This document shows positions 6,921 through 58,168 of a stretch of 64,000 bases of DNA, piece by piece. Under the pieces are notes generated by a model. That model made no database searches. It saw only the letters and a list, made by a program, of their open reading frames with translations, and was not told where the DNA came from. The DNA comes from Cyclobacteriaceae bacterium (GTDB taxonomy: Bacteria > Bacteroidota > Bacteroidia > Cytophagales > Cyclobacteriaceae): positions 37,000-100,999 of the forward strand of contig BPHC01000009.1 in the NCBI GenBank assembly GCA_026003355.1, written 5' to 3'. Both the position numbers and the translations under genes were made by a program. Every line of letters starts with the position of its first letter. Position 1 is the stretch's first letter.

Positions 6921-7007
6921 CGGAGAGAGCGGGATTCGAACCCGCGATACCGTTTCCGGTATACACACTTTCCAGGCGTGCTCCTTCAACCACTCGGACA
7001 CCTCTCC
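6921..7007 (-). tRNA. tRNA-Ser(GGA)
   Basis: Read on the minus strand the 87 bases fold as a class II tRNA with long variable arm. The acceptor GGAGAGG pairs with CTCTCC plus one G-U, the anticodon loop CTGGAAA gives GGA, the T arm reads GGGTTCGAATCCC, and the discriminator base is G. CCA is not encoded. Confidence 0.95.
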
Positions 7008-18981: not shown

Positions 18982-18991
18982 GGTAATGATT

Positions 18992-19360
18992 GAGCAGGCC
19001 TGTAAGCCGGGTTCTGTCTCCCGCCGGGGCGGGATGCTTACCATTTATCTGGCCCTATTAAGGGGTCAAGCGGTCTACCCACTCCGGCCGGCAACAGGTT
19101 GCCTGGGAATCAGGAGGTTCCATGCCGGAGCCTATTTGACCTTTCAACGCATAAGGTTTTCCGAGCTACCGGTTATTGCTAACCGGTACGGTGGGCTCTT
19201 ACCCCACCTTTTCACTATCACCCCACAGGGGCTACCTGTTTTCTGTGGCACTTTCTGTCCCGGCCGCTTTACCGGCCGGTCCCCCGGTGTTCCCGGGGTA
19301 TGCTTCCTGAAGTTGCCCGGACTTTCCTCCCCGAACGAGGGGCGGTAAGCCGGCCTGCCC
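18992..19360 (-). ncRNA. rnpB: RNase P RNA, bacterial class A
   Basis: About 369 nt on the minus strand. The 5' and 3' ends pair as P1 (GGGCAGGCC with GGCCTGCTC, one G-U). The conserved GAGGAAAGTCCGGGC near the 5' end and the 3' block AGAACCCGGCTTACAGGCC are the universally conserved CR-I/CR-V (P4) segments, and CAGATAAATGGTAAGC is also typical. It is the catalytic RNA for tRNA 5' processing. A terminator follows. The long plus-strand ORF 18650-19348 across it is a shadow. Confidence 0.95.
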
Positions 19361-19393
19361 GTGCAAAGATAACGAAACCGGGCTTTGGCCAGT

Positions 19394-34096: not shown

Positions 34097-34351
34097 ATGA
34101 AACGGAAAAAGGCTATGCGCAAAGACCTTCGAAACAGGTTAAGCGGTTCAATTGAAGAACTGGTTAAGCAGGAAGACCCCAGCCCATCGAAAAAAGTAAA
34201 AAAAATTATTAAGCGGGCTTCTGATAAGCTGGCCCGTGCCGTGGTAAAAGACACGAAAAAGGCGGAGAATAAAAGTGACAAAACCGGTAAAAAGCTAAGC
34301 CGGAAAGCAGCTCAAAGAAAGACCGAAATGTCTGCTGAGTCTGTGGCTTAA
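34097..34351 (+). CDS. Small, very basic protein of unknown function
   Basis: 84 residues with Lys and Arg making up about a third of the sequence and clustered Lys runs (SKKVKKIIKRASDKLARAVVKDTKK). The composition recalls histone H1-like or nucleoid-associated tails of Bacteroidota, but no signature confirms it. It starts 135 bp after the permease in an AT-rich region containing TTGTTAAC and GTTTAA, and overlaps the convergent end of the lycopene cyclase gene by 4 bp. The reading frame is open with a good ATG, so it is probably real. Confidence 0.55.
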   Translation: MKRKKAMRKDLRNRLSGSIEELVKQEDPSPSKKVKKIIKRASDKLARAVVKDTKKAENKSDKTGKKLSRKAAQRKTEMSAESVA

Positions 34352-35040
34352 CGGCGGTGTTGTTTAAAAAATTCGTAAAGTACAATGTTGAGCCATATAA
34401 GTAACATGCCGTAGAACACGTCTTCGGCAGGTATGGTCCCCAGGCGTACACCCAGGTTTTCGTTGTTGTTGTACCAAACCACTTCCTCATCTATCCAGGA
34501 GCCGGTAAGGATGCCGTTTACAATAAAAAACGGAATAAGTATTACGGCATAAGCCAGGTAAAACCTGCCCATAAACCGGGGCCTGAAATAATACATGTGC
34601 AGGCCGAGCAGCATACCCAGTGTTATGAAGGTTACCGAAGTGTACCATTTTTCGAGGTTATATAACCCGGAAATAAAAAGGAACGCTACCAGCGCAAATG
34701 AAATGAAATCATGATGCGGGAAGAGATAATCTTTTTCAATGAGGTGGTTCAGTGCAAAATAGGTAAATACACAGGCGTAGGGAATGCAGACAAAAAACAG
34801 AATTTCTTCCAGCGGCAGACTGCCAACATAAATTTCCGAAAGATAACGCGGGTTAAAGCCCCACACGCCCATGCGTGTAAACCATTCGTCCCATACAATA
34901 AACAAGGCTGCCGTTACCAGCAAGGCAGGCCAGAGGTATTTCCAGGTTTTGTAAAAGGGTGCTTTCGGATAAAAACTACAGGCCAGCGGAATACTGATGC
35001 TGCCAATATCTAACGCCAGGTATAGGTACTTTTCGCTCAA
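34348..35040 (-). CDS. Lycopene cyclase, CrtYcd-domain type
   Basis: 230 residues with six or seven membrane helices. Family signs are IVWDEWFTRMGVWGFNP, GSLPLEEILFFVCIPYACVF and TIPAEDVFYGMLL, the repeated PxEExxF motifs of the fused CrtYc-CrtYd (CarR/archaeal-type) cyclases, plus EEVVWYNNNENLG. It turns the ends of lycopene into beta-ionone rings, giving beta-carotene. It is the last gene of the light/carotenoid operon and follows crtZ after 5 bp. No flavin-type CrtY is present. Confidence 0.9.
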   Translation of the reverse strand: MSEKYLYLALDIGSISIPLACSFYPKAPFYKTWKYLWPALLVTAALFIVWDEWFTRMGVWGFNPRYLSEIYVGSLPLEEILFFVCIPYACVFTYFALNHLIEKDYLFPHHDFISFALVAFLFISGLYNLEKWYTSVTFITLGMLLGLHMYYFRPRFMGRFYLAYAVILIPFFIVNGILTGSWIDEEVVWYNNNENLGVRLGTIPAEDVFYGMLLIWLNIVLYEFFKQHRR

Positions 35041-35045
35041 GCGGA

Positions 35046-35540
35046 TTACTGGGTTTCCTGGCGCTCTTTTTTAAAGACAAATTGTTTGGGTTCGTACTTT
35101 TTTGGCGCGATCAGGAACCCAAACGCTTCGCAGCCTTCTTTCGTGTGTTTGGCATGGTGAATATAGTGTGCATTAATCATACGCTGCAGGTATTTGCTGC
35201 GCCTGGACGGGCGCCATCTTATGCGCTGGTGCACAATAATGTCGTGAAAAACGATGTAAAAAATACCGTATAACAGTATTCCTAACCCTACCGCAATGCC
35301 GTAAGGATTATAATTTACTACCGTGAAGTAATAAAACAGAAACATAGAAGGGATACTGAAAACCACAGCAAACCAGTCGTTTTTTTCCAGGGCGTGGTTA
35401 TGCACCGTGTGGTGCGATTTGTGCCACGACCATAAAAAGCCATGCATTACATATTTGTGTGTAAACCACGCTACAAATTCCCAGAAAAGAAACGTAGCAA
35501 CGGTAACCAATGCGCAGCTTATGATTAACCAGACACTCAT
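35046..35540 (-). CDS. crtZ: Beta-carotene hydroxylase
   Basis: 164 residues with four hydrophobic helices. The di-iron histidine motifs are complete: WFTHKYVMHGFLWSWHKSHH, FHDIIVHQRI and NAHYIHHAKH, as in CrtZ and the sterol-desaturase superfamily. It hydroxylates the beta rings of beta-carotene at C3, giving zeaxanthin. The start overlaps the SRPBCC stop by 4 bp and the cyclase follows 5 bp later, so all are translated from one message. Confidence 0.9.
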   Translation of the reverse strand: MSVWLIISCALVTVATFLFWEFVAWFTHKYVMHGFLWSWHKSHHTVHNHALEKNDWFAVVFSIPSMFLFYYFTVVNYNPYGIAVGLGILLYGIFYIVFHDIIVHQRIRWRPSRRSKYLQRMINAHYIHHAKHTKEGCEAFGFLIAPKKYEPKQFVFKKERQETQ

Positions 35541-36019
35541 ACAATAGCCGATGCTGATTTGTTGACGAACAACGCTTCCAGTTTTTTAAAGCGATAGTCA
35601 AAGATACGGCTTAACGACCGCTTTACAAAAAGTGCGTGTGCCCAGGTGCCTAAGGGCCCAAGGGGCAGCGCATAATTAACCTCATCGGTCATTTCTATAC
35701 CGCCTTCCACCTCTCTGAAATGGTGCTGATGATGCCATAGGGCGTAAGGCCCTGAACGTTGCTCGTCAACAAAATAATAGGGTTGGTTCACATGGGTAAT
35801 CTCAGTTACCCAGTGCATGGTAATGCCGCGGATACCCTGCACCTGATACCGGATAATCTGTCCCGGGTACATGGGGCCATGCCCTGAGATATAGAGAATT
35901 TTAAAACCCATGTATTCCGGTGTAATAATGGCCAGGTTGCGCGGATCAGAAAAAAATGTCCACGCTTCGGCCAGTGTTAAGGGAAGAATTTGCGTTCGTT
36001 TAAGATTATAAATTGTCAT
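35537..36019 (-). CDS. SRPBCC (START-like) ligand-binding protein
   Basis: 160 residues. The helix-grip SRPBCC fold is indicated by the N-terminal strand and helix TQILPLTLAEAWTFFSDPRNLAIITPEYMGFKI and by the HWVTEITHVNQPYYFVDEQRSGPYALWHHQHHF stretch, which is common to a Bacteroidota and cyanobacterial subfamily often next to photolyase and carotenoid genes. These proteins bind hydrophobic ligands; a carotenoid-handling role is inference from the operon. It stands between the flavin reductase and crtZ genes. Confidence 0.85.
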   Translation of the reverse strand: MTIYNLKRTQILPLTLAEAWTFFSDPRNLAIITPEYMGFKILYISGHGPMYPGQIIRYQVQGIRGITMHWVTEITHVNQPYYFVDEQRSGPYALWHHQHHFREVEGGIEMTDEVNYALPLGPLGTWAHALFVKRSLSRIFDYRFKKLEALFVNKSASAIV

Positions 36020-36048: not shown

Positions 36049-36531
36049 TTAGGAACGGATTATGTTTTTAAGCTTCAGGTAGCGGGTGGTCAGGGGTATG
36101 CCGTGGTTCAGATTTCTAAAGGTCAGCACACGGCAAACCGTACTCAGGTGGTCTCCGGTATCAAAACACCTTACAACCTTCAAGTGAACAAAGGCAAGCG
36201 CACGGCTAAGGTAGGGCAAACCGTGGTGCCACTCAACAGGTTCGTTGATGCTGCTGAGTTTATGGGTGTTCCGGCCGGAAGTTTTTCCAAGGCGTGCTAC
36301 CAGCCGGTACTGTTTACGCTCCAGCAGTTGCAGCAGAAATTCACCCCGTTTACCAACCAGCTCGAGCGTGAAGGTATTCCGGTAAAGAGCTACTACATAT
36401 AATTTAGGTTTCAGGCTTACCGGCACGGCATAGGTGCAAATGTTCATGTTGGCGTTACCCTGCCAGGCCGATGCAATGCTGTATACGGGCTGGTCAACAC
36501 GGTTCCACGGTTTTTTACGCAGTTCGCTCAT
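36049..36531 (-). CDS. Flavin reductase-like (FMN-binding split barrel) protein
   Basis: 160 residues, short for the family. NRVDQPVYSIASAWQGNANMNICTYAVPVSLKP is the flavin reductase-domain start (ligand loop with Asn and Thr contacts), and FLLQLLERKQYRLVARLGKTSGRNTHKL follows the family pattern. Such proteins reduce FMN or FAD with NAD(P)H, or bind the flavin only. In this operon it could supply reduced flavin to the two photolyase-type proteins, which is inference. The start lies 17 bp inside the upstream cry gene, a translational-coupling overlap. Confidence 0.8.
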   Translation of the reverse strand: MSELRKKPWNRVDQPVYSIASAWQGNANMNICTYAVPVSLKPKLYVVALYRNTFTLELVGKRGEFLLQLLERKQYRLVARLGKTSGRNTHKLSSINEPVEWHHGLPYLSRALAFVHLKVVRCFDTGDHLSTVCRVLTFRNLNHGIPLTTRYLKLKNIIRS

Positions 36532-37993
36532 ATAATTTTTCCAGAAACCAATCTGCCTGTTTAAATAGCCTTATCTGCCGCGCTTTGGGCATTTGTTGCA
36601 TTAGCTTCAGCATTATACGCATACGTGCGTTACCGGCAAATTTCTGCTGGTGTTTATTTAAAAACCGCCAGTATAGGCCGTCCCAGGTATCTACCCATTT
36701 ATCCTTGCTGAAGGAGCTCATTTTCAGAATATAGTTTGAACTGCTGATGTAGGGTTTTGTTGCCATCAGACCGCCATCGGCATACTGACTCATGCCATAC
36801 ACGTTGGGTACCATAACCCAGTCGTAGGCATCGATAAACAATTCCATAAACCATTGGTACACCCTGTCGGGATGGATTTCGCAAAGCAGCATGAAGTTGC
36901 CCATCACCATGAGGCGTTCAATGTGATGAGCATAGGCTTGTTCGGTGACGCGGTGGATGACGGCATCCACCGGATCAACGCCTGTTGTGCCGGTGTAAAA
37001 GGCTAAAGGCATAGGTGCGCTGTGCCCAAAAAAATTGCAGGTACGTTGAAACGTTCCCTGGCGGAGGTAAACCGCACGGATAAATTCCCTCCATCCTATT
37101 AGTTGCCGCACAAATCCTTCCAGGGAATTAAGCGGGATGCGGTGGGTAAGGGCATATTCCAACGTACGTTCAAGCACATATTCCGGTTGCAGCAGTCCTG
37201 TATTCAGGGCGGGGGCCAGTACAGAGTGAAACACAACAGCGTGGTGCGGATGGATGGCGTCCTGGTAGGTGCCAAAGTTATACAGCCGGTTGGCGAGGAA
37301 ATGGTCCAGCGCTTGCCGGGCATCCTGAAAAGTTGTGGCATAGCCAAATCCATGGGTGGTCCCCGGGTTATCAGGGAAGGTCTGCGCTACGTATGCGGCT
37401 GCTTCTTCCGTAAAACGGGAAGCGGGTGCCTGGTATGTTGGTGGCAGAACAATTTTTCGGGGCAGCGCCTTCCGGTTTTCGGCATCGAACGACCAGCGGT
37501 TTCCTAAGGGTTTGCCGTTGGCCATTAAAATGTTGAGGCTCTTCCGTGCGTGTTGATAGAAGCGGGTTTGGAAGTACCTGTCTGTGTGTTGAAAATGGCT
37601 CTGAAGAAATGCCAAAGGGAAAATAAAGTTAGGGGTTTCGTACCGTATACCCCGTATGGAATGGTTGCGGCAGTAGCGGGTTAGTCTTCTTTCCAGGAGG
37701 TAATCGGTGGTATCGGCATAGTGTACGACTGCTGTGTTTTGTGCTTTCAGATTGCCGAAAACATTGTTCAGTGAGCGTCCTTGTGCCCAGTTGATATAGG
37801 TTACCGGATATCCTTTTTGGGTCAGGTAATCGGCATAATATTTCATGCTGGCCCGGTGCAGCATGAGTTTCTTTTTATGAAAGGCATACTGGCCAAAAAA
37901 AAGGTCGTCTTCAATAAGAATTACCCTCCGGCTTTTGCTCAGTGCCGGGTGGCGTTCAAACAGTTGATGGGGAAACACCAGGGTTACTTCCAC
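36515..37993 (-). CDS. Cryptochrome/photolyase-related protein (FeS-BCP branch) lacking the Fe-S cysteines
   Basis: 492 residues, GTG start. The N-terminal Rossmann-like domain reads LVFPHQLFERHPALSKSRRVILIEDDLFF, as in the deoxyribodipyrimidine photolyase-related (DPRP, FeS-BCP/PhrB) branch. The C-terminal FAD domain shows LIGWREFIRAVYL, AHHIERLMVMGNFMLL, and PNVYGMSQYADGGLMATKPY. Bacterial (6-4) photolyases of this branch carry four Cys for a 4Fe-4S cluster; here the matching places read GVDPVDAVI and MSSFSKDKWVDTWDGLYW, with no Cys. It may repair (6-4) lesions or act as a photoreceptor. It overlaps the flavin reductase gene. Confidence 0.85.
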   Translation of the reverse strand: MEVTLVFPHQLFERHPALSKSRRVILIEDDLFFGQYAFHKKKLMLHRASMKYYADYLTQKGYPVTYINWAQGRSLNNVFGNLKAQNTAVVHYADTTDYLLERRLTRYCRNHSIRGIRYETPNFIFPLAFLQSHFQHTDRYFQTRFYQHARKSLNILMANGKPLGNRWSFDAENRKALPRKIVLPPTYQAPASRFTEEAAAYVAQTFPDNPGTTHGFGYATTFQDARQALDHFLANRLYNFGTYQDAIHPHHAVVFHSVLAPALNTGLLQPEYVLERTLEYALTHRIPLNSLEGFVRQLIGWREFIRAVYLRQGTFQRTCNFFGHSAPMPLAFYTGTTGVDPVDAVIHRVTEQAYAHHIERLMVMGNFMLLCEIHPDRVYQWFMELFIDAYDWVMVPNVYGMSQYADGGLMATKPYISSSNYILKMSSFSKDKWVDTWDGLYWRFLNKHQQKFAGNARMRIMLKLMQQMPKARQIRLFKQADWFLEKLYERTA

Positions 37994-38030: not shown

Positions 38031-38153
38031 TATCCGGCTTTTTTTACTGCAATATTTTACTTCGGTCCAACAGCGTTTCCACTTTTTACGCCAGGTAAAA
38101 AGCTGGCCGCATGTGGGGCAGGTTTTTTCAGGCAGGTGGGCTTTTTTTGTCAT
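38031..38153 (-). CDS. DUF2256 zinc-ribbon peptide (as read, truncated)
   Basis: 40 residues, too short for the ORF track. MTKKAHLPEKTCPTCGQLFT followed by WRKKWKRCW and VKYCSKK is the DUF2256 signature, a short zinc-ribbon-like protein often found next to photolyase and cryptochrome genes. The normal family ending CSxKCRxN is absent: the frame stops at YCSKKAG right after an A6 run (plus 38040-38045). Adding one A would continue into SRISQNRRAL, closer to the family, so a deletion error is possible. The ATG overlaps the upstream photolyase stop by 4 bp. Function is unknown. Confidence 0.75.
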
Positions 38154-39487
38154 TCCAGTGTGCGGCCAAGTGCTTCGCTGTACACTTTAAGTGCGCGCTG
38201 GCGTGCAAAGTTATAGTCAACAATAGGTTTGGGGTATTGGGGTGTTTCATATTCGGGAACCCATTTTTTAATGTAAGTGCGTTGCGGGTCGAATTTCTCC
38301 ATTTGCAAACCGGGATTAAAAACTCTGAAGTACGGTGCGGCATCGCATCCGCTTCCGGCGGCCCACTGCCAGCCTCCGTTATTCGAGGCCAGGTCGAAGT
38401 CCAGCAGTTTTTTGGCAAAATAGGCCTCGCCCCAGCGCCAGTCTATTAACAGGTTTTTAGTGAGAAAACTGGCTGTAACCATACGTACCCTGTTGTGCAT
38501 GTATCCGGTGGCGTTCAGTTCGCGCATGCCGGCATCTACCAGCGGATATCCGGTACGGCCCTGGCACCATGCTTCAAATTCACCGGCATGGTTGCGCCAT
38601 TTTATCCGGTCGTATTCGGGTTTAAAGGCCCGACTCACTACGTGCGGGAAATGCCATAAAATCATCTGGTAAAAGTCGCGCCAGATGAGCTCGTTAAGCC
38701 ATTTTTCATTTTTTTTAAATGCTATACCGGCCAGTTGCCGGATGCTTACCGTGCCAAAGCGCAGGTGCACACTCAGGCGGGTGGTACCGGCGGTGCCGGG
38801 ATAGTCGCGGGTAAGGTGGTAGTTTTCAATGACTTTCAGCGGAATTTTCCTTTCAGGTAAAGGAATATGCGAGGTGCGAAAGCCAATTTCCTCAATCGCG
38901 GGAAAGGGCAGTGGGGGCGTTTGTTGCAAATGATGAAAATATTTTTCAGTGGGATAGGCCTTTAAATAAAACGCACGGCACAGAGCTTTCCACTTTTTGC
39001 TGTATGGTGTGTACACCGTATAAGGTTGTCCATCATCTTTCAATACCTCATTCTTTTCAAAAAGAACCTGATCTTTAAAAGTGCGAAAGGGTACGTTGGC
39101 AGCCTGCAATACGGTTCTTACCTCCTTATCGCGTCTGATGGCATAAGGTTCGTAATCGTGGTTGGTGTAAACGGCTGCAGGTTTTAGTTTTTTAAAAATT
39201 TCAACCGGATTGCCATGCAGTACCAGCAGCGAGCTGCCTTTTTCTTCCAGTTCCTGTTTTAAACGAATAAGCGTTTGATATATAAATGTTACACGGGAAT
39301 CTGCGGGGTCGTCCAGCTTGTTCAGTATTTCGGTATCAAAAATAAAAAGAGGCAACACCTGGCGGTGTTCGCGCAGTGCGTGGTACAGTGCGGCCTGGTC
39401 GGTAAGGCGCAAATCCCTGCGAAGCCAAACCAGCACCGTGTCGGGTGTTACTGCGTTAAGTGCCTGGTGATTTTGGTACAGGTTCAA
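38150..39487 (-). CDS. phrB: Class I deoxyribodipyrimidine (CPD) photolyase
   Basis: 445 residues, family-normal. The N-terminal antenna domain is TVLVWLRRDLRLTDQAAL. The FAD domain holds TRLSVHLRFGTVSIRQL, WLNELIWRDFYQMIL, GYPLVDAGMRELNATGYMHNRVRM and NNGGWQWAAGSGCDAAPYFRVFNP, which includes FAD and CPD-contact residues and the electron-transfer Trp. It repairs cyclobutane pyrimidine dimers in DNA with blue light. It follows idi after 14 bp and is overlapped by the DUF2256 gene. Confidence 0.95.
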   Translation of the reverse strand: MNLYQNHQALNAVTPDTVLVWLRRDLRLTDQAALYHALREHRQVLPLFIFDTEILNKLDDPADSRVTFIYQTLIRLKQELEEKGSSLLVLHGNPVEIFKKLKPAAVYTNHDYEPYAIRRDKEVRTVLQAANVPFRTFKDQVLFEKNEVLKDDGQPYTVYTPYSKKWKALCRAFYLKAYPTEKYFHHLQQTPPLPFPAIEEIGFRTSHIPLPERKIPLKVIENYHLTRDYPGTAGTTRLSVHLRFGTVSIRQLAGIAFKKNEKWLNELIWRDFYQMILWHFPHVVSRAFKPEYDRIKWRNHAGEFEAWCQGRTGYPLVDAGMRELNATGYMHNRVRMVTASFLTKNLLIDWRWGEAYFAKKLLDFDLASNNGGWQWAAGSGCDAAPYFRVFNPGLQMEKFDPQRTYIKKWVPEYETPQYPKPIVDYNFARQRALKVYSEALGRTLE

Positions 39488-39501: not shown

Positions 39502-40023
39502 TTAAAGTCTGTCAAACAGGTAGTTAAATTCGGGGTGGGTTATCATGAGCCTGAGCCACGGGGTAAAGCGTTCAGGATTATGTATAACTTCGGCATACAT
39601 GCTGTTAAGTGAAACAAACCGCCAGGCGGCAACTTCGGCAGGGTTTGCCTCCGGAATGCCGTCAAACCTGCCGGTAAATACGTGGTCTACCTCATGTTCG
39701 GTAAGGTGGTTATCCAGGTTGGCTTTGTAGATAAATGAATAGACAAACCGGGGTTCAAGGTCTATGCCCATCTCTTCTTTCAATCTTCTTCGGGCGGCTT
39801 CGGCCGTGCTTTCGCACGGACGGGGGTGGCTGCAGCAGGTGTTGCTCCACAAACCGGCGCAGTGGTATTTATGCGGTGCGCGTTTCTGCAGCAGCAATTC
39901 TCCTTTTGAGTTTAAAATAACCACAGAAAAGGCGCGGTGCAAAAGGCCCTGGCGGTGGGCTTCCAGCTTTTCCATGGTGCCGGTTTGCCGGTCGTGCGGG
40001 TCAACCAGAATTACCTCTTCCAT
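39502..40023 (-). CDS. idi: Isopentenyl-diphosphate delta-isomerase, type I
   Basis: 173 residues from ATG 40023 (MEEVILVDPHDRQTG); the track adds a GTG codon. The Nudix-fold isomerase shows HRAFSVVILNSKGELLLQKRA, the catalytic Cys and His in WSNTCCSHPRP, RRLKEEMGID (Nudix Glu residues) and TEHEVDHVF (metal Glu pair). It interconverts IPP and DMAPP and should feed the carotenoid pathway. The ATG shares one base with the crtB stop (TGATG), strong coupling. Confidence 0.93.
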   Translation of the reverse strand: MEEVILVDPHDRQTGTMEKLEAHRQGLLHRAFSVVILNSKGELLLQKRAPHKYHCAGLWSNTCCSHPRPCESTAEAARRRLKEEMGIDLEPRFVYSFIYKANLDNHLTEHEVDHVFTGRFDGIPEANPAEVAAWRFVSLNSMYAEVIHNPERFTPWLRLMITHPEFNYLFDRL

Positions 40024-40859
40024 CACAACAGGTTGAACTGATGTTTAACATACGACCATGCCAGCAGGGCAGCTTTATGCCGGTTGCGTATGCGAATGCG
40101 TGTGGACATGATGATTTCGCACGGGGTGTTTTGAATTTTTTTAAACAGGGTTTTATAGTACACATAGGCTACGTAAACCCCGAAACGCGATGATCGGGGC
40201 AACATCTTAATGCCATGATAGGCTGCCTCAAAATCGGCATGGATGCTTTTTTCAATTTCCCTTTTGGAATTTTCATTTATCGCTGACAGGTCCACATCCG
40301 GAAAATAGCTTCGGCCCATGTGCAGGTAGTCGGCCTGTAGGTCGCGCAGAAAATTTACTTTTTGAAAAGCAGCTCCCAGTTTCATGGCAAATGGTTTAAG
40401 CTCATTGTACTTGTGGTCATCGCCATTTACAAAAACCCGCAGACACATAAGGCCCACTACTTCGGCTGAGCCCAGAATATATTCGTTAAAACTGTTGTGA
40501 TCATGGCGGCTGCGGTACAGGTCCATTTCCATGCTTCGCATAAACAGTTCAATGGAAGTCCGGTCGATTTTGTACTGATGAACTGCCTTTTGAAAACTGT
40601 TGAGAATAGGATTAAGGCTGATTCCTTCTTCAATTGCTTGCCATGTTTCTGATTTAAAGCGCTCCAGCAAGCCGGCTTTGTTGTAGTTGTGGAAAGAATC
40701 GACTATTTCATCGGCAAGACGAACAAAACCATAAATGGCATAGATGGGTTCGCGCAGCTTTTTGTTAAGGCACAGTATGCCCAGCGAAAAGGATGTGCTG
40801 TAGGCCCGGGTGGTAATACGGCTGCAGGCAACAGATACTTTGTCGAATAAATCTTTCAT
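40023..40859 (-). CDS. crtB: Phytoene synthase
   Basis: 278 residues from ATG 40859 (MKDLFDKVSVACSRITTRAYSTSFS). The two metal-binding Asp motifs are LADEIVDSF and NFLRDLQAD (DxxxD type); YCRxVAG-like VVGLMCLRVF lies between. It joins two GGPP molecules into phytoene. The GGPP synthase gene is not in the window. The 14-bp gap from crtI and the 1-base overlap with idi show one transcript. Confidence 0.93.
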   Translation of the reverse strand: MKDLFDKVSVACSRITTRAYSTSFSLGILCLNKKLREPIYAIYGFVRLADEIVDSFHNYNKAGLLERFKSETWQAIEEGISLNPILNSFQKAVHQYKIDRTSIELFMRSMEMDLYRSRHDHNSFNEYILGSAEVVGLMCLRVFVNGDDHKYNELKPFAMKLGAAFQKVNFLRDLQADYLHMGRSYFPDVDLSAINENSKREIEKSIHADFEAAYHGIKMLPRSSRFGVYVAYVYYKTLFKKIQNTPCEIIMSTRIRIRNRHKAALLAWSYVKHQFNLL

Positions 40860-40873
40860 AGGCAATACAGGTA

Positions 40874-42346
40874 TTAACAATTGTTTTTTACCAGTACATC
40901 GGCCACCACCTTACCGGATATGAGCGAAGGCGGAACGCCCGGGCCGGGAACGGTTAACTGGCCGGTATAGTACAGGTTGGGTATTTTTTTGTTTACTATT
41001 TTAGGTTTAAGGTTGGCGGTTTGCAACAATGTATTGGCCAGACCATAAGCGTTGCCCATGCAGGCATTGTAGTCGTTAATAAAATCGTTGTGGGCATAGC
41101 TTCGGCTGTACACAATGTGCGGGGCAATGCGCTGGCCGGTAAGCGTCTCCAGCCTGCCGATAATTTCCTGAAAATACTTTTCCCGGATTTCGGGCGTGTC
41201 GGTCAGGTTTGGGGCAACCGGTATAAGTATCATTACCGTTTCGCCCTCGGGCGGAGCAACTGTGCTATCGGTTTTGGAGGTACAGCTCAGGTAAAACTGG
41301 GGGCGCTCCGGCCAGCGTTTTTCGGTATATATGGCGCGGGCATGGCGTTCAAAATCTTCATCGAAGAACAGGGTGTGATGAAGCAGGCCCGAAAGCTTTT
41401 TGTTCAGGCCCAGATAAAAAATAAGACTGGAAGGAGCAAACGTGCGTTTCTGCCAGTATTTTTCGGAGTAATTGCGGTGCGAGGCAGGCAACAGCTTTTG
41501 TTCCACATGGTGGTAGTCGGCACCGGCCACAATAAAGTCGAACGGATGCCATTCACCGTTCACCACCAGTCCTTTGGCTTTTGTGCCGTTTAATGAAATT
41601 TGCTGCACGGGGGCATTGTATCTTATTTCCACACCCAGTTCGCGGGCCAGGTTAACAATGGCCTGTACCACGGTAAACATGCCTCCTTCAGGGTACCAGG
41701 TGCCCAGCGCCATGTCGGCATAGTTCATCAGGCTGTAAAGGGCAGGTGTTTTTTGCGGTGTGGCACCTAAAAATATTACCGGAAACTCAAGCAACTGAAT
41801 GAGCCTGGGATGATGGAAATATTTTCGCACGTGGGCCGACAATGAGGTGAACACCTGTAATCTCACAAGGCCGGAAAGTATTTCCCTGTCCAGCAGTTCG
41901 GCATACGAAAGGCCTGGCTTATACACCAGTTTTTTTATGCCGGCTTCGTACTTAAAGCGGGCTTCTTCCAGAAATTTTTTCAGTCTGGGCCCGCTGCCCG
42001 GTTCAAGGTTTTCAAACAGGGTTGTTAAAGGTTCAATGCCTGCGGGAATATCGAGGTAGTCGGCCCGGGCAAAGTAAATGCGGTAGGATGGATCCAGGCG
42101 ATGTAACTGATAGTAATCGGACGGATTTTTACCGAATGTGCGGAAGAACGACTCAAATACATCGGGCATCCAGTACCAGCTGGGGCCCATATCGAACGTA
42201 AAACCCTGTGCCTGAAACATGCGGGCTCTTCCGCCCGGTGTGCTGTTTTTTTCGAAAACCGTTACGGCATAGCCGGCCTTTGCCAGGTGGCATGCTGCCG
42301 AAAGACCGGCAAAACCCGAACCGATAACCGCAACCGTTTTACGCAT
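40874..42346 (-). CDS. crtI: Phytoene desaturase (lycopene-forming)
   Basis: 490 residues. The FAD-binding N-terminus VAVIGSGFAGLSAACHLAKAGYAVTVFEKN is the GxGxxG dinucleotide fold, followed by TPGGRARMFQAQGFTFDMGPSWYWMP. The C-terminal CrtI signature is YYTGQLTVPGPGVPPSLISGKVVAD. It performs the four desaturations from phytoene to lycopene. It lies 18 bp behind the sigma-factor gene and 14 bp before crtB. Confidence 0.95.
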   Translation of the reverse strand: MRKTVAVIGSGFAGLSAACHLAKAGYAVTVFEKNSTPGGRARMFQAQGFTFDMGPSWYWMPDVFESFFRTFGKNPSDYYQLHRLDPSYRIYFARADYLDIPAGIEPLTTLFENLEPGSGPRLKKFLEEARFKYEAGIKKLVYKPGLSYAELLDREILSGLVRLQVFTSLSAHVRKYFHHPRLIQLLEFPVIFLGATPQKTPALYSLMNYADMALGTWYPEGGMFTVVQAIVNLARELGVEIRYNAPVQQISLNGTKAKGLVVNGEWHPFDFIVAGADYHHVEQKLLPASHRNYSEKYWQKRTFAPSSLIFYLGLNKKLSGLLHHTLFFDEDFERHARAIYTEKRWPERPQFYLSCTSKTDSTVAPPEGETVMILIPVAPNLTDTPEIREKYFQEIIGRLETLTGQRIAPHIVYSRSYAHNDFINDYNACMGNAYGLANTLLQTANLKPKIVNKKIPNLYYTGQLTVPGPGVPPSLISGKVVADVLVKNNC

Positions 42347-42364: not shown

Positions 42365-42865
42365 TCAAAAACCTGCGAGTCGTTTTTGTATTTCTTTTCG
42401 CGCATGGAATATGCGGTTTTTTACCGTGCCAATCGGAATACCCAGGTGTTTGGCTATTTCCTGATACTTGTAACCTGATGTGTGCATCTTGAACGGTACG
42501 AGCAGCTCATCGCGAAGGCCGTTGATGTGCTGCCAGATGTCTTTGTACTCTAAAGCCGTGTCGGGTGAGTTAAAAGTATGTGTATCGGCTACGTTCAAAA
42601 AATGCAGATCGGCCGTTTTGTCCTGAAAGGTTCCGGAGCGCTGGTTCTTCCTGTAATTGTTGATAAACGTGTTGCGCATTATGGTAAACAGCCAGCCCTT
42701 CAGGTTTGTGCCGCTTCTGAATTTATCGCGGTAGGTAAGTGCTTTCAGGATAGTATCCTGAACCAGATCGTTCATTTCATCGCGGTCGGTGGTAAACCTG
42801 CGTGTAAACAGGCTTAATGTACTGCGCAGCCGGCTGATTTCGAGAGCAAATTCATGAGCTGACAT
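42365..42865 (-). CDS. ECF-type RNA polymerase sigma factor
   Basis: 166 residues from ATG 42865 (MSAHEFALEISRLRSTLS). The track start at 42904 would make the TTGTTTAA repeats coding, so I prefer the inner Met. Region 2 reads DEMNDLVQDTILKALTYRDKFRSGTNLKGWLFTIMRNTFINNYRK; region 4 reads YKYQEIAKHLGIPIGTVKNRIFHARKEIQKRL, a helix-turn-helix. It is an ECF sigma factor without an adjacent anti-sigma gene. Placed between the CarH-like regulator and crtI, it may transcribe the light-induced genes, as LitS-type sigma factors do in some actinobacteria; that comparison is inference. Confidence 0.9.
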   Translation of the reverse strand: MSAHEFALEISRLRSTLSLFTRRFTTDRDEMNDLVQDTILKALTYRDKFRSGTNLKGWLFTIMRNTFINNYRKNQRSGTFQDKTADLHFLNVADTHTFNSPDTALEYKDIWQHINGLRDELLVPFKMHTSGYKYQEIAKHLGIPIGTVKNRIFHARKEIQKRLAGF

Positions 42866-42870
42866 GGAAA

Positions 42871-42967
42871 TTTTGTTTAACTTTTGTTTAAAATCGTTAA
42901 ACAATTTTACGCAAATCTGCCTTAAATGATGGGTTTTTTGAGGTCTTGTTTAATGAATTTTGTTAAA
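42871..42967. promoter_or_regulatory. TTGTTTAA repeat cluster between carH-like and sigma genes, candidate operator
   Basis: Five near-identical boxes stand in this AT-rich stretch: TTGTTTAA at 42873, TTGTTTAA at 42884 (11 bp later), TTAAACAA at 42897 (inverted, making an 8-bp palindrome with a 5-bp spacer with the previous one), TTGTTTAA at 42946 and TTGTTAAA at 42960. A further GTTAAACA covers the carH stop codon. On the minus strand each contains TnnACA. CarH of Thermus is known to bind tandem 11-bp repeats, so these are good candidates for a light-sensitive operator of the operon. Confidence 0.5.
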
Positions 42968-43001
42968 TGCCGTGATTTTATGGCTTTTGGCGTGGACCGC
43001 G

Positions 43002-43889
43002 TTAAACAGCGTCTGCCGGCGGTAGTTGTTCGTCCAGTTCCAGGGCTCTGTAAATAATTTTTACATTTTTCGGAATGAGTACGGCTGCATTGCGCAGGTT
43101 ATGCCCGGCCGCGAAAACAGTGGCCCCGGCCATGTGCTCGGCCAGGGTGTTTAAAAACGGCTGAATTTGGGAAGCAGAAGGTGTGGAAATAAAATTGGTT
43201 AGCACATAACGGGGTTGGTGTGTGCGGTAAATGGTTAATACATCGTTAAACGGTACCGATTGCCCGAGGTAAAAGGTATAATAACCTTTGCGCCGCACCA
43301 GGTAATGAAAAAACAGCAGGCCAAATTCGTGCAACTCTCCTTCAGGCAGAAAAAGCAGGGCACCGGGTGCCATGCGTGGAGCCACCGGCAGCGCTGCTAT
43401 GGCGGTAATAAATTTTTGGCGGATAAGATTGGAGATGAAATGTTCATGCGCCGGAGTTATGGTGCCGGTTTGCCACATTACGCCTATTTTTTCCAGAAAG
43501 GGATAAACAACTTCGGCAATGGTGCGTGTAAAGCCGATTCTTTCTTCCAGCTGCGCGATAACCTCGTTGAACTTCCATTCATCGAGGTCAACCATGGCCA
43601 CCACCAGCTGGTCTATAAACAATTCGGCATCTGTTTTAAGCCGGCTTAATTCCGATATTCGCTCGCTGATTTCGGCATCTGACATGCGTGCGATGTGCGA
43701 TATTTTAAGACCGTGATGGTTGAGCAGCGAAATATTAATAATGCGTTTCAGGTCGTCATCGGTATATAGCCTTATATTGGTAGCCGTGCGCAGGGGCTCC
43801 ACAATGCGGTGCCGTTTTTCCCATATGCGGATGGTGTGGGCTTTGATGCCCGAAAGTTTTTCCAGTTCTTTAATGGAATATTGGCCCAT
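43002..43889 (-). CDS. CarH/LitR-like B12-binding MerR photoreceptor regulator
   Basis: 295 residues. MerR-type winged helix, residues 1-75 (YSIKELEKLSGIKAHTIRIWEKRH). The helical cap domain holds W139-x9-E149-H150 (MWQTGTITPAHEH), the light-sensing adenosylcobalamin signature of CarH. The Rossmann-like B12 domain shows E185LHEFG (E-x-H-x-x-G, lower-ligand His187). In the dark such proteins bind B12 and DNA as tetramers and repress; light breaks the Co-C bond and releases DNA. The residue after Trp is Gln140 where the Thermus protein has His. It heads the eleven-gene operon on this strand; the divergent helicase starts 17 bp away. Confidence 0.88.
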   Translation of the reverse strand: MGQYSIKELEKLSGIKAHTIRIWEKRHRIVEPLRTATNIRLYTDDDLKRIINISLLNHHGLKISHIARMSDAEISERISELSRLKTDAELFIDQLVVAMVDLDEWKFNEVIAQLEERIGFTRTIAEVVYPFLEKIGVMWQTGTITPAHEHFISNLIRQKFITAIAALPVAPRMAPGALLFLPEGELHEFGLLFFHYLVRRKGYYTFYLGQSVPFNDVLTIYRTHQPRYVLTNFISTPSASQIQPFLNTLAEHMAGATVFAAGHNLRNAAVLIPKNVKIIYRALELDEQLPPADAV

Positions 43890-57867: not shown

Positions 57868-57959
57868 GGAGAGGTGGGTGAGAGGCTTAAACCAGCAGTT
57901 TGCTAAACTGTCGTACGGGTAAAACCGTACCGGGGGTTCGAATCCCCCCTTCTCCGCCA
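57868..57959 (+). tRNA. tRNA-Ser(GCT)
   Basis: Class II tRNA with a long variable arm. Acceptor GGAGAGG pairs with the 3' CTTCTCC (one G-U), anticodon loop TTGCTAA gives GCT, T arm GGGGGTTCGAATCCCCC, discriminator G and an encoded CCA at 57957-57959. Confidence 0.95.
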
Positions 57960-58001: not shown

Positions 58002-58074
58002 GGCTCCGTAGCTCAATGGATAGAGCAACTGCCTTCTAAGCAGTAGGTTGAAGGTTCGACCCCTTCCGGAGTCA
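58002..58074 (+). tRNA. tRNA-Arg(TCT)
   Basis: Acceptor GGCTCCG / CGGAGTC (one G-U), D arm GCTCAATGGATAGAGC, anticodon loop CTTCTAA gives TCT, T arm with GGTTCGACC, discriminator A. CCA is not encoded. Confidence 0.95.
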
Positions 58075-58090: not shown

Positions 58091-58168
58091 CGGGGTGTAG
58101 CGCAGCCCGGTTAGCGCACCTGGTTTGGGACCAGGGGGTCGCAGGTTCGAATCCTGCTACCCCGACCA
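58091..58168 (+). tRNA. tRNA-Pro(TGG)
   Basis: Acceptor CGGGGTG / TACCCCG, D arm GCGCAGCCCGGTTAGCGC, anticodon loop TTTGGGA gives TGG, T arm GCAGGTTCGAATCCTGC, discriminator A, and CCA encoded at 58166-58168. It follows tRNA-Arg by 16 bp and probably shares its transcript. Confidence 0.95.

Follow-up and report, generated by a model that had tools for sequence, protein, structure and literature searches.

A conserved 32-bp inverted repeat as the probable operator of a CarH-type B12 photoreceptor in Bacteroidia

How do Bacteroidota switch on their carotenoid genes in the light? Light induction of carotenoids has been reported in this phylum, and the regulatory system has been called poorly known (PMC7064467). 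Elsewhere the CarH proteins provide the closest described systems. Those that have been characterised bind 11-bp direct repeats of the form nnnnTnnACAn, and CarA has been re-interpreted as a reader of direct repeats rather than inverted ones (PMC9304148). In Myxococcus xanthus, CarA and CarH repress the carotenoid operon at Pcrt. The CarA site was at first proposed to be an inverted repeat, much as is described below; binding was later assigned to direct repeats (PMC9304148), and the sequence and spacing of those repeats differ from ours. The class II LitR proteins of Pseudomonas (PplR1/PmlR2, PMC9758184) are MerR-type regulators that likewise place photoprotection and folate genes under the control of light through paired half-sites. 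Their site, however, is T(G/A)TACA-N12-TGTA(C/T)A and they work with a LOV partner, whereas the protein considered here keeps its AdoCbl residues.

The nearest comparison is with CarH of Thermus thermophilus and Bacillus megaterium (5c8d/5c8e; PMC9304148). Common to these and to the present locus are a MerR domain followed by a B12-binding helical bundle and a Rossmann fold, the residues for AdoCbl and light, the linkage to carotenoid genes, and an operator core TnnACA lying over the promoter. The differences are in the DNA and in what follows it. Theirs are three or four 11-bp direct repeats; here the repeat is inverted and 32 bp long, with 16 bp between its arms (hereafter IR32). An ECF sigma factor is usually the first gene controlled, the promoter is of the Bacteroidota sigma-A kind, and the proteins are only 22–23% identical in structural alignment. 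Judged by these comparisons, IR32 would work like a CarH operator and yet lie outside the known direct-repeat type. No description of such a site was found in the open-access literature searched, and the excerpts seen of the MliR paper (PMC9478572) and of the Flavobacterium psychrophilum transcription-start-site paper (PMC9723704) contain no such motif.

The inverted repeat and its neighbourhood

The window is the whole 64,000-nucleotide stretch analysed, part of a 2.76-Mb genome whose nearest named records are Cyclobacteriaceae MAGs. The genes that concern us are these:

43002–43889, minus strand: CarH-like MerR/B12-binding photoreceptor-repressor, 295 aa (Pfam MerR_1 and B12-binding_2, phmmer, residues, model)
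42365–42865, minus strand: ECF-type sigma factor (start ATG 42865), the gene that directly follows the putative operator
40874–42346, minus strand: crtI phytoene desaturase (NF058655 CrtID, over the cut-off)
40023–40880, minus strand: crtB phytoene synthase (SQS_PSY; operon neighbour in relatives)
39502–40026, minus strand: idi-like NUDIX protein (domain match and relatives)
38150–39487, minus strand: DNA photolyase/cryptochrome, phr (profile match)
36515–37993, minus strand: deoxyribodipyrimidine photolyase-related protein, DPRP (domain match)
36049–36531, minus strand: flavin reductase-like protein
35537–36019, minus strand: SRPBCC protein, orthologues of which also occur with IR32 (L100, L122)
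35046–35540, minus strand: CrtZ-like carotene hydroxylase (sequence resemblance); similar proteins follow IR32 (L128–L130), that of L128 having no Pfam match
34348–35040, minus strand: probable lycopene cyclase (identified by eye), end of the collinear operon

Many relatives share the order lhr←carH→sigma→crtI→crtB→idi→phr. Elsewhere in the window are an RNase P RNA of class A (18987–19361, minus strand) and tRNAs at 6921–7007, 57868–57956, 58002–58074 and 58091–58165. Between carH and sigma lie the boxes:

42873–42904, no strand: IR32, TTGTTTAA-N16-TTAAACAA, both arms exact at 42873–42880 and 42897–42904 (sequence and 46-locus comparison)
42873 (+), 42884 (+), 42897 (−) and 42946 (+): exact TTGTTTAA boxes, four copies within 82 bp (42873–42953)
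42884–42891, plus strand: central extra TTGTTTAA half-site, exact, the source of the 11-bp direct repeat
42946–42953, plus strand: isolated exact half-site TTGTTTAA, without N16 partner (sequence match)
42960–42967, plus strand: isolated half-site TTGTTAAA, one mismatch (sequence match)
43002–43009, minus strand: half-site CTGTTTAA, one mismatch, overlapping the carH stop codon, without N16 partner

A preliminary description of this DNA had counted five boxes plus one at the carH stop. The cluster is real and beyond chance; the count comes instead to four exact copies and two with one mismatch, of which that at the stop codon (43002) is probably incidental. The window holds nine exact TTGTTTAA boxes on either strand, five of them outside the carH–sigma spacer. 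When nine boxes were placed at random in 64 kb, 200,000 times over, four never fell inside 82 bp, and in 20,000 dinucleotide shuffles of the spacer at least three boxes arose at a frequency of 5e-5 and four in none. The 11-bp period of the two proximal boxes (42873 and 42884) was correctly described. Box 42884 pairs with the inverted box at 42897 across 5 bp, and the same inverted box pairs with 42873 across 16 bp.

Which of these arrangements is conserved? We compared the carH-to-sigma or pre-sigma regions of 46 distinct relatives, drawn from family and genome searches. These orthologous spacers contain 108 exact boxes, where dinucleotide shuffles give 5.1, and 41 of the 46 contain IR32 with no more than one mismatch per arm, against 0.17 expected. 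When all spacer lengths from 0 to 35 were scanned over the loci, N16 scored 41, N17 6 and N6 5, the remainder 0–3. In the profile of 51 sites most positions of TTGTTTAA and of TTAAACA hardly vary, while the spacer is loose. The TAAACA inside each TTAAACAA arm matches the TnnACA core of known CarH repeats, and these cores are conserved.

The 11-bp direct repeat fares otherwise. It occurs in 3 of the 46 spacers, and of 72 IR32 sites only 3 have TnnACA 11 bp ahead of arm 2. Across the class, 16 genomes contain the exact pair and 8 contain the reversed control. The central 42884 box reads GAACAA in L039, the closest relative, whose CarH is 82% identical, and it is not kept in L039–L041. The tandem pair is unique within the window genome. 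On these counts we rejected the direct repeat as the conserved unit. We conclude that, as judged from sequence conservation, the 11-bp pair is a local exception and the conserved unit is the inverted repeat with its 16-bp spacer. L091 (1501–1532, genome G317) is a second locus with a triple arrangement, TTGTTTAACCCTTATAAACAAAAGTTAAACAA, and matches the window in its extra central TAAACAA. A helically phased second, distal IR32 is common in relatives and absent from the window, the distal boxes of which are unpaired half-sites.

Promoter overlap and the adjacent photoreceptor

How does the repeat lie with respect to the promoter? The motif TAnnTTTG is the mapped sigma-A −7 box of F. psychrophilum (PMC9723704). 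In 24 of 42 loci it stands at a fixed offset from arm 1 of the ATG-proximal IR32, at −5 in 14 loci and at +15/+16 in 10; the two positions are 20–21 bp apart, which is two helical turns. The form TAnnWTTG is found at the −5 offset in 21 relatives, and in 16 of the 24 loci a TTG lies exactly 19 bp 5′ of TAnnTTTG. Overlap with the −35 or −10 promoter element, a feature of known CarH operators, is found in these 24 relatives. The window itself has only TAAAATTG, and no clear −33 TTG was found for its IR32 copy:

42902–42909, minus strand: probable −7 promoter element TAAAATTG (one mismatch to TAnnTTTG), sharing TTG with arm 1 at the −5 offset seen in 14 relatives

Just upstream of arm 1, the window (42899–42926, minus strand) and three relatives (L039, L040, L041) share a TTTAAGSC...CGTA[AG]A-like stretch, at which the usual TTG-N19-TAnnTTTG promoter is degenerate. 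It may serve as a promoter, either of the ECF type or peculiar to this clade.

Where several copies of IR32 occur, neighbours are 32, 43–44, 53, 62–65, 74, 106–107 or 117–118 bp apart, two further distances being 121 and 129 bp. The spacing has a period of about 10.6–10.75 (R 0.83; the loci are related and no formal p-value is claimed). That seven distinct distance classes share one helical register points to a protein that binds the DNA and acts from a single face.

The position of the repeat also bears on the start of the sigma gene. The preliminary description preferred the downstream start, ATG 42865, and we agree: homologues align from residue 1 at this ATG, in 30 of 42 loci a stop codon interrupts the frame between it and arm 1, and the alternative start, TTG 42904, falls inside arm 1. 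What of carH itself? IR32 lies upstream of carH in one of 40 loci only, and autoregulation of carH through IR32 was on this count rejected for the family; yet the repeat does precede carH in two genomes, G290 and G368 (L089, L090, L118).

The protein encoded beside the repeat contains an N-terminal winged helix–turn–helix (Pfam MerR_1, E 4e-15) and a B12-binding_2 domain. By phmmer it matches T. thermophilus CarH (5c8d) at E 7e-19, and its AlphaFold model (pLDDT 88.8) finds full-length T. thermophilus CarH (5c8d/5c8e) as the best fold match, at E 2e-15. Residues W139, E149/H150 and H187, which are conserved in 58–59 of 59 homologues, correspond to the W-x9-EH motif and the axial histidine in ExHxxG (W131, E141, H142 and H177 of the Thermus protein). 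The published light signature, GxxW, EH, GxxH and GxxxP (PMC11796333), is present in full on inspection. By the measure of sequence, then, the set of AdoCbl and light-signature residues is complete, as in CarH/LitR class I; a cobalamin adenosyltransferase is encoded in the same genome. At 85.9 bits the protein misses the cut-off of 400 for the NCBIfam CarH equivalog NF052513, a naming cut-off that measures no functional feature. We therefore call it CarH-like and place it on a separate Bacteroidota branch.

In the DNA-binding domain the motif K-A-H-T-[IL]-R-x-W-E-x-R, with K16, A17, H18, T19 and R21 of the recognition helix, is invariant in the 59 homologues, as are R40 and Y42 of the wing; N38 and I39 are nearly so. 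This is what would be expected of a protein that reads an invariant box.

Which protein reads the repeat?

If IR32 is an operator, does its occurrence follow that of a particular regulator? We searched 395 Bacteroidia genomes for exact IR32 without reference to genes, and found it in 150, against 5 for the reversed control. A profile of the CarH branch assigned the protein to 253 of these genomes. The repeat is present in 146 of the 253 and in 4 of the 142 that lack the protein (Fisher about 2e-32, computed with 143 as the latter total). Within the nine families that include both kinds of genome the association holds, with a CMH p of 1.8e-6 and an odds ratio of 36. There remain 107 genomes with CarH and no exact IR32, in part since only exact matches were counted. 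When 30 IR32 loci were fetched blindly, about two thirds proved to have a gene of this system next to the site (carH, sigma, crt, phr or the operon's SRPBCC gene); folE and rhodopsin genes are also among the neighbours of sites fetched in this way. Three genomes (G368, G408 and G376) have no sigma orthologue at E ≤ 1e-25 and keep exact IR32 at carH/crtI (L090/L118, L082, L096). IR32 accordingly follows CarH and not sigma, and on these three genomes we ruled out sigma as its reader.

IR32 (42873–42904) is in our view highly likely to serve the adjacent CarH-type B12 photoreceptor as operator; the protein would repress the sigma-crtI-crtB-idi-phr-DPRP operon in the dark and release it in the light. 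In the dark, an AdoCbl-bound CarH oligomer would grip both TTGTTTAA arms, each with its TnnACA core, and mask the −7/start region of the sigma-A promoter, so that the sigma-crt-photolyase operon would be silent. On illumination the Co–C bond would break, the oligomer would dissociate, and the ECF sigma, carotenoid and photolyase genes would be expressed; sigma may then amplify a further set of genes. With the arms 24 bp apart and in opposite orientation, a two-fold dimer of dimers with flexibly linked DNA-binding domains would be the simplest arrangement. From what was computed, namely the inverted repeat, its overlap with promoters in relatives, its co-occurrence with CarH and the photoreceptor signature, we infer CarH binding, repression, light release and the oligomeric state.

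The boxes had already been proposed as the CarH operator in the preliminary description. That idea gains support from the conservation across 46 spacers, from an occurrence that follows CarH rather than sigma, and from the overlap with predicted sigma-A promoters; the Thermus-type tandem architecture proposed with it does not. Might CarH all the same bind the head-to-tail repeats at 42873 and 42884, the inverted copy being incidental? Two exact boxes at 11 bp, each with TnnACA, are what known CarH operators would lead one to expect. Against the 3 of 46 spacers with that pair stand the 41 with inverted N16, and the scarcity of TnnACA before arm 2, the class-wide counts and the degenerate central box of the closest relative leave this reading quite unlikely. 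Another regulator of photoprotection genes, of the CRP/FNR type such as Thermus LdrP or a second MerR protein, might bind IR32, with CarH co-occurring through the shared pathway. Four genomes without CarH do hold the exact repeat, and co-occurrence was compared for CarH (class-wide) and sigma (eight genomes) only. But 4 in 142 is close to the rate of the reversed control (5 in 395), in most loci the regulator next to the site is carH, the arms contain the CarH core and the recognition helix does not vary, and we consider such another regulator quite unlikely.

Very unlikely, in our view, is that the ECF sigma itself reads the boxes as binding or promoter elements in autoregulation. No other gene stands first behind IR32 as often as sigma does, and the CGTA-containing stretch near the box in the window and L039–L041 resembles ECF −10 elements. 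Yet the repeat persists in the three genomes that lack sigma; it is palindromic and occurs in multiple phased copies, unlike an asymmetric −35/−10 promoter; and TTG-N19-TAnnTTTG promoters of the sigma-A type sit on it. An RNA hairpin in the leader could form a 9-bp stem of −7.1 kcal/mol (z −2.6 against shuffles), a score expected of any inverted repeat. Sites lie as much as about 250 bp ahead of the start, come as phased tandem copies and cover the promoter, all of which makes the hairpin exceedingly improbable. As for chance clustering in AT-rich intergenic DNA, the spacer does have 33% GC against 50% for the window. The dinucleotide shuffles, the spacer scan and the genome search with reversed control exclude such clustering, and with conservation in 41 of 46 spacers the probability left to chance is negligible.

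The extent of the putative regulon

What else might the repeat control? In the window genome exact IR32 occurs once, the next best copy having two mismatches. When the genome was scanned for further copies of the repeat, nothing rose above background (51 sites with up to three mismatches, 40 for the reversed control). The direct light response of this organism would therefore be the operon of about eleven genes, from 42865 down to 34348, together with whatever sigma adds.

In other genomes the repeat precedes more. Behind 74 distinct exact sites the first gene is sigma in 30 assignments, crtI in 6, carH in 5, rhodopsin in 4 and SRPBCC in 2. PTPS genes follow it at L083, L111, L122, L135 and L139, and GTP cyclohydrolase I (folE) at L088 and L108; fasciclin-domain secreted proteins are found behind exact copies at L114, L136, L147 and L150, and DUF4397-type secreted proteins at L084, L087, L093, L103 and L116. 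These four assignments rest on Pfam searches with one to four representatives each, and CrtZ was assigned by eye. The pterin and folate genes perhaps make the antenna cofactor of photolyase; folM, of the folate pathway, is light-inducible in a Pseudomonas LitR system (PMC9758184). The fasciclin and DUF4397 genes are possibly a light-induced group of surface proteins.

Is proteorhodopsin among the targets? From 84 genomes with PF01036 we read 69 upstream regions and 71 downstream controls. IR32 with at most two mismatches occurs in 31 of the 69 and in none of the 71. The spacer scan upstream gave N16 31, N17 12 and N6 12, with 0–4 at other lengths; if N17 is included the sites rise to about 41 of 69. 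The loci concerned (L106 at 1501–1532, L134, L141, L145 and the rhodopsin loci L151–L220) include one rhodopsin gene that is followed by a blh-like gene. Upstream of some rhodopsin genes (L168, L173 and L159 are examples) the N6 and N17 partners of TTGTTTAA start from the same arm, 11 bp apart, and such combinations are possibly three-arm sites. A fixed promoter offset was not found at the rhodopsin sites, TAnnTTTG standing at −5/+15 in 4 of 31 only.

We lean, with some reserve, towards a single Bacteroidia regulon in which a CarH-family B12 light receptor with an inverted-repeat operator would control pigment, DNA repair, pterin/folate, surface fasciclin and proteorhodopsin genes; in marine flavobacteria, cobalamin supply and light would then switch rhodopsin phototrophy. 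With the site, its likely reader and its target genes in hand, a single protein and a single DNA fragment would suffice to test the question of light control. Should the inverted geometry be confirmed, CarH proteins would have two ways of gripping DNA. Of broadest interest are the proteorhodopsin sites, which would link the phototrophy of a major marine group to vitamin B12.
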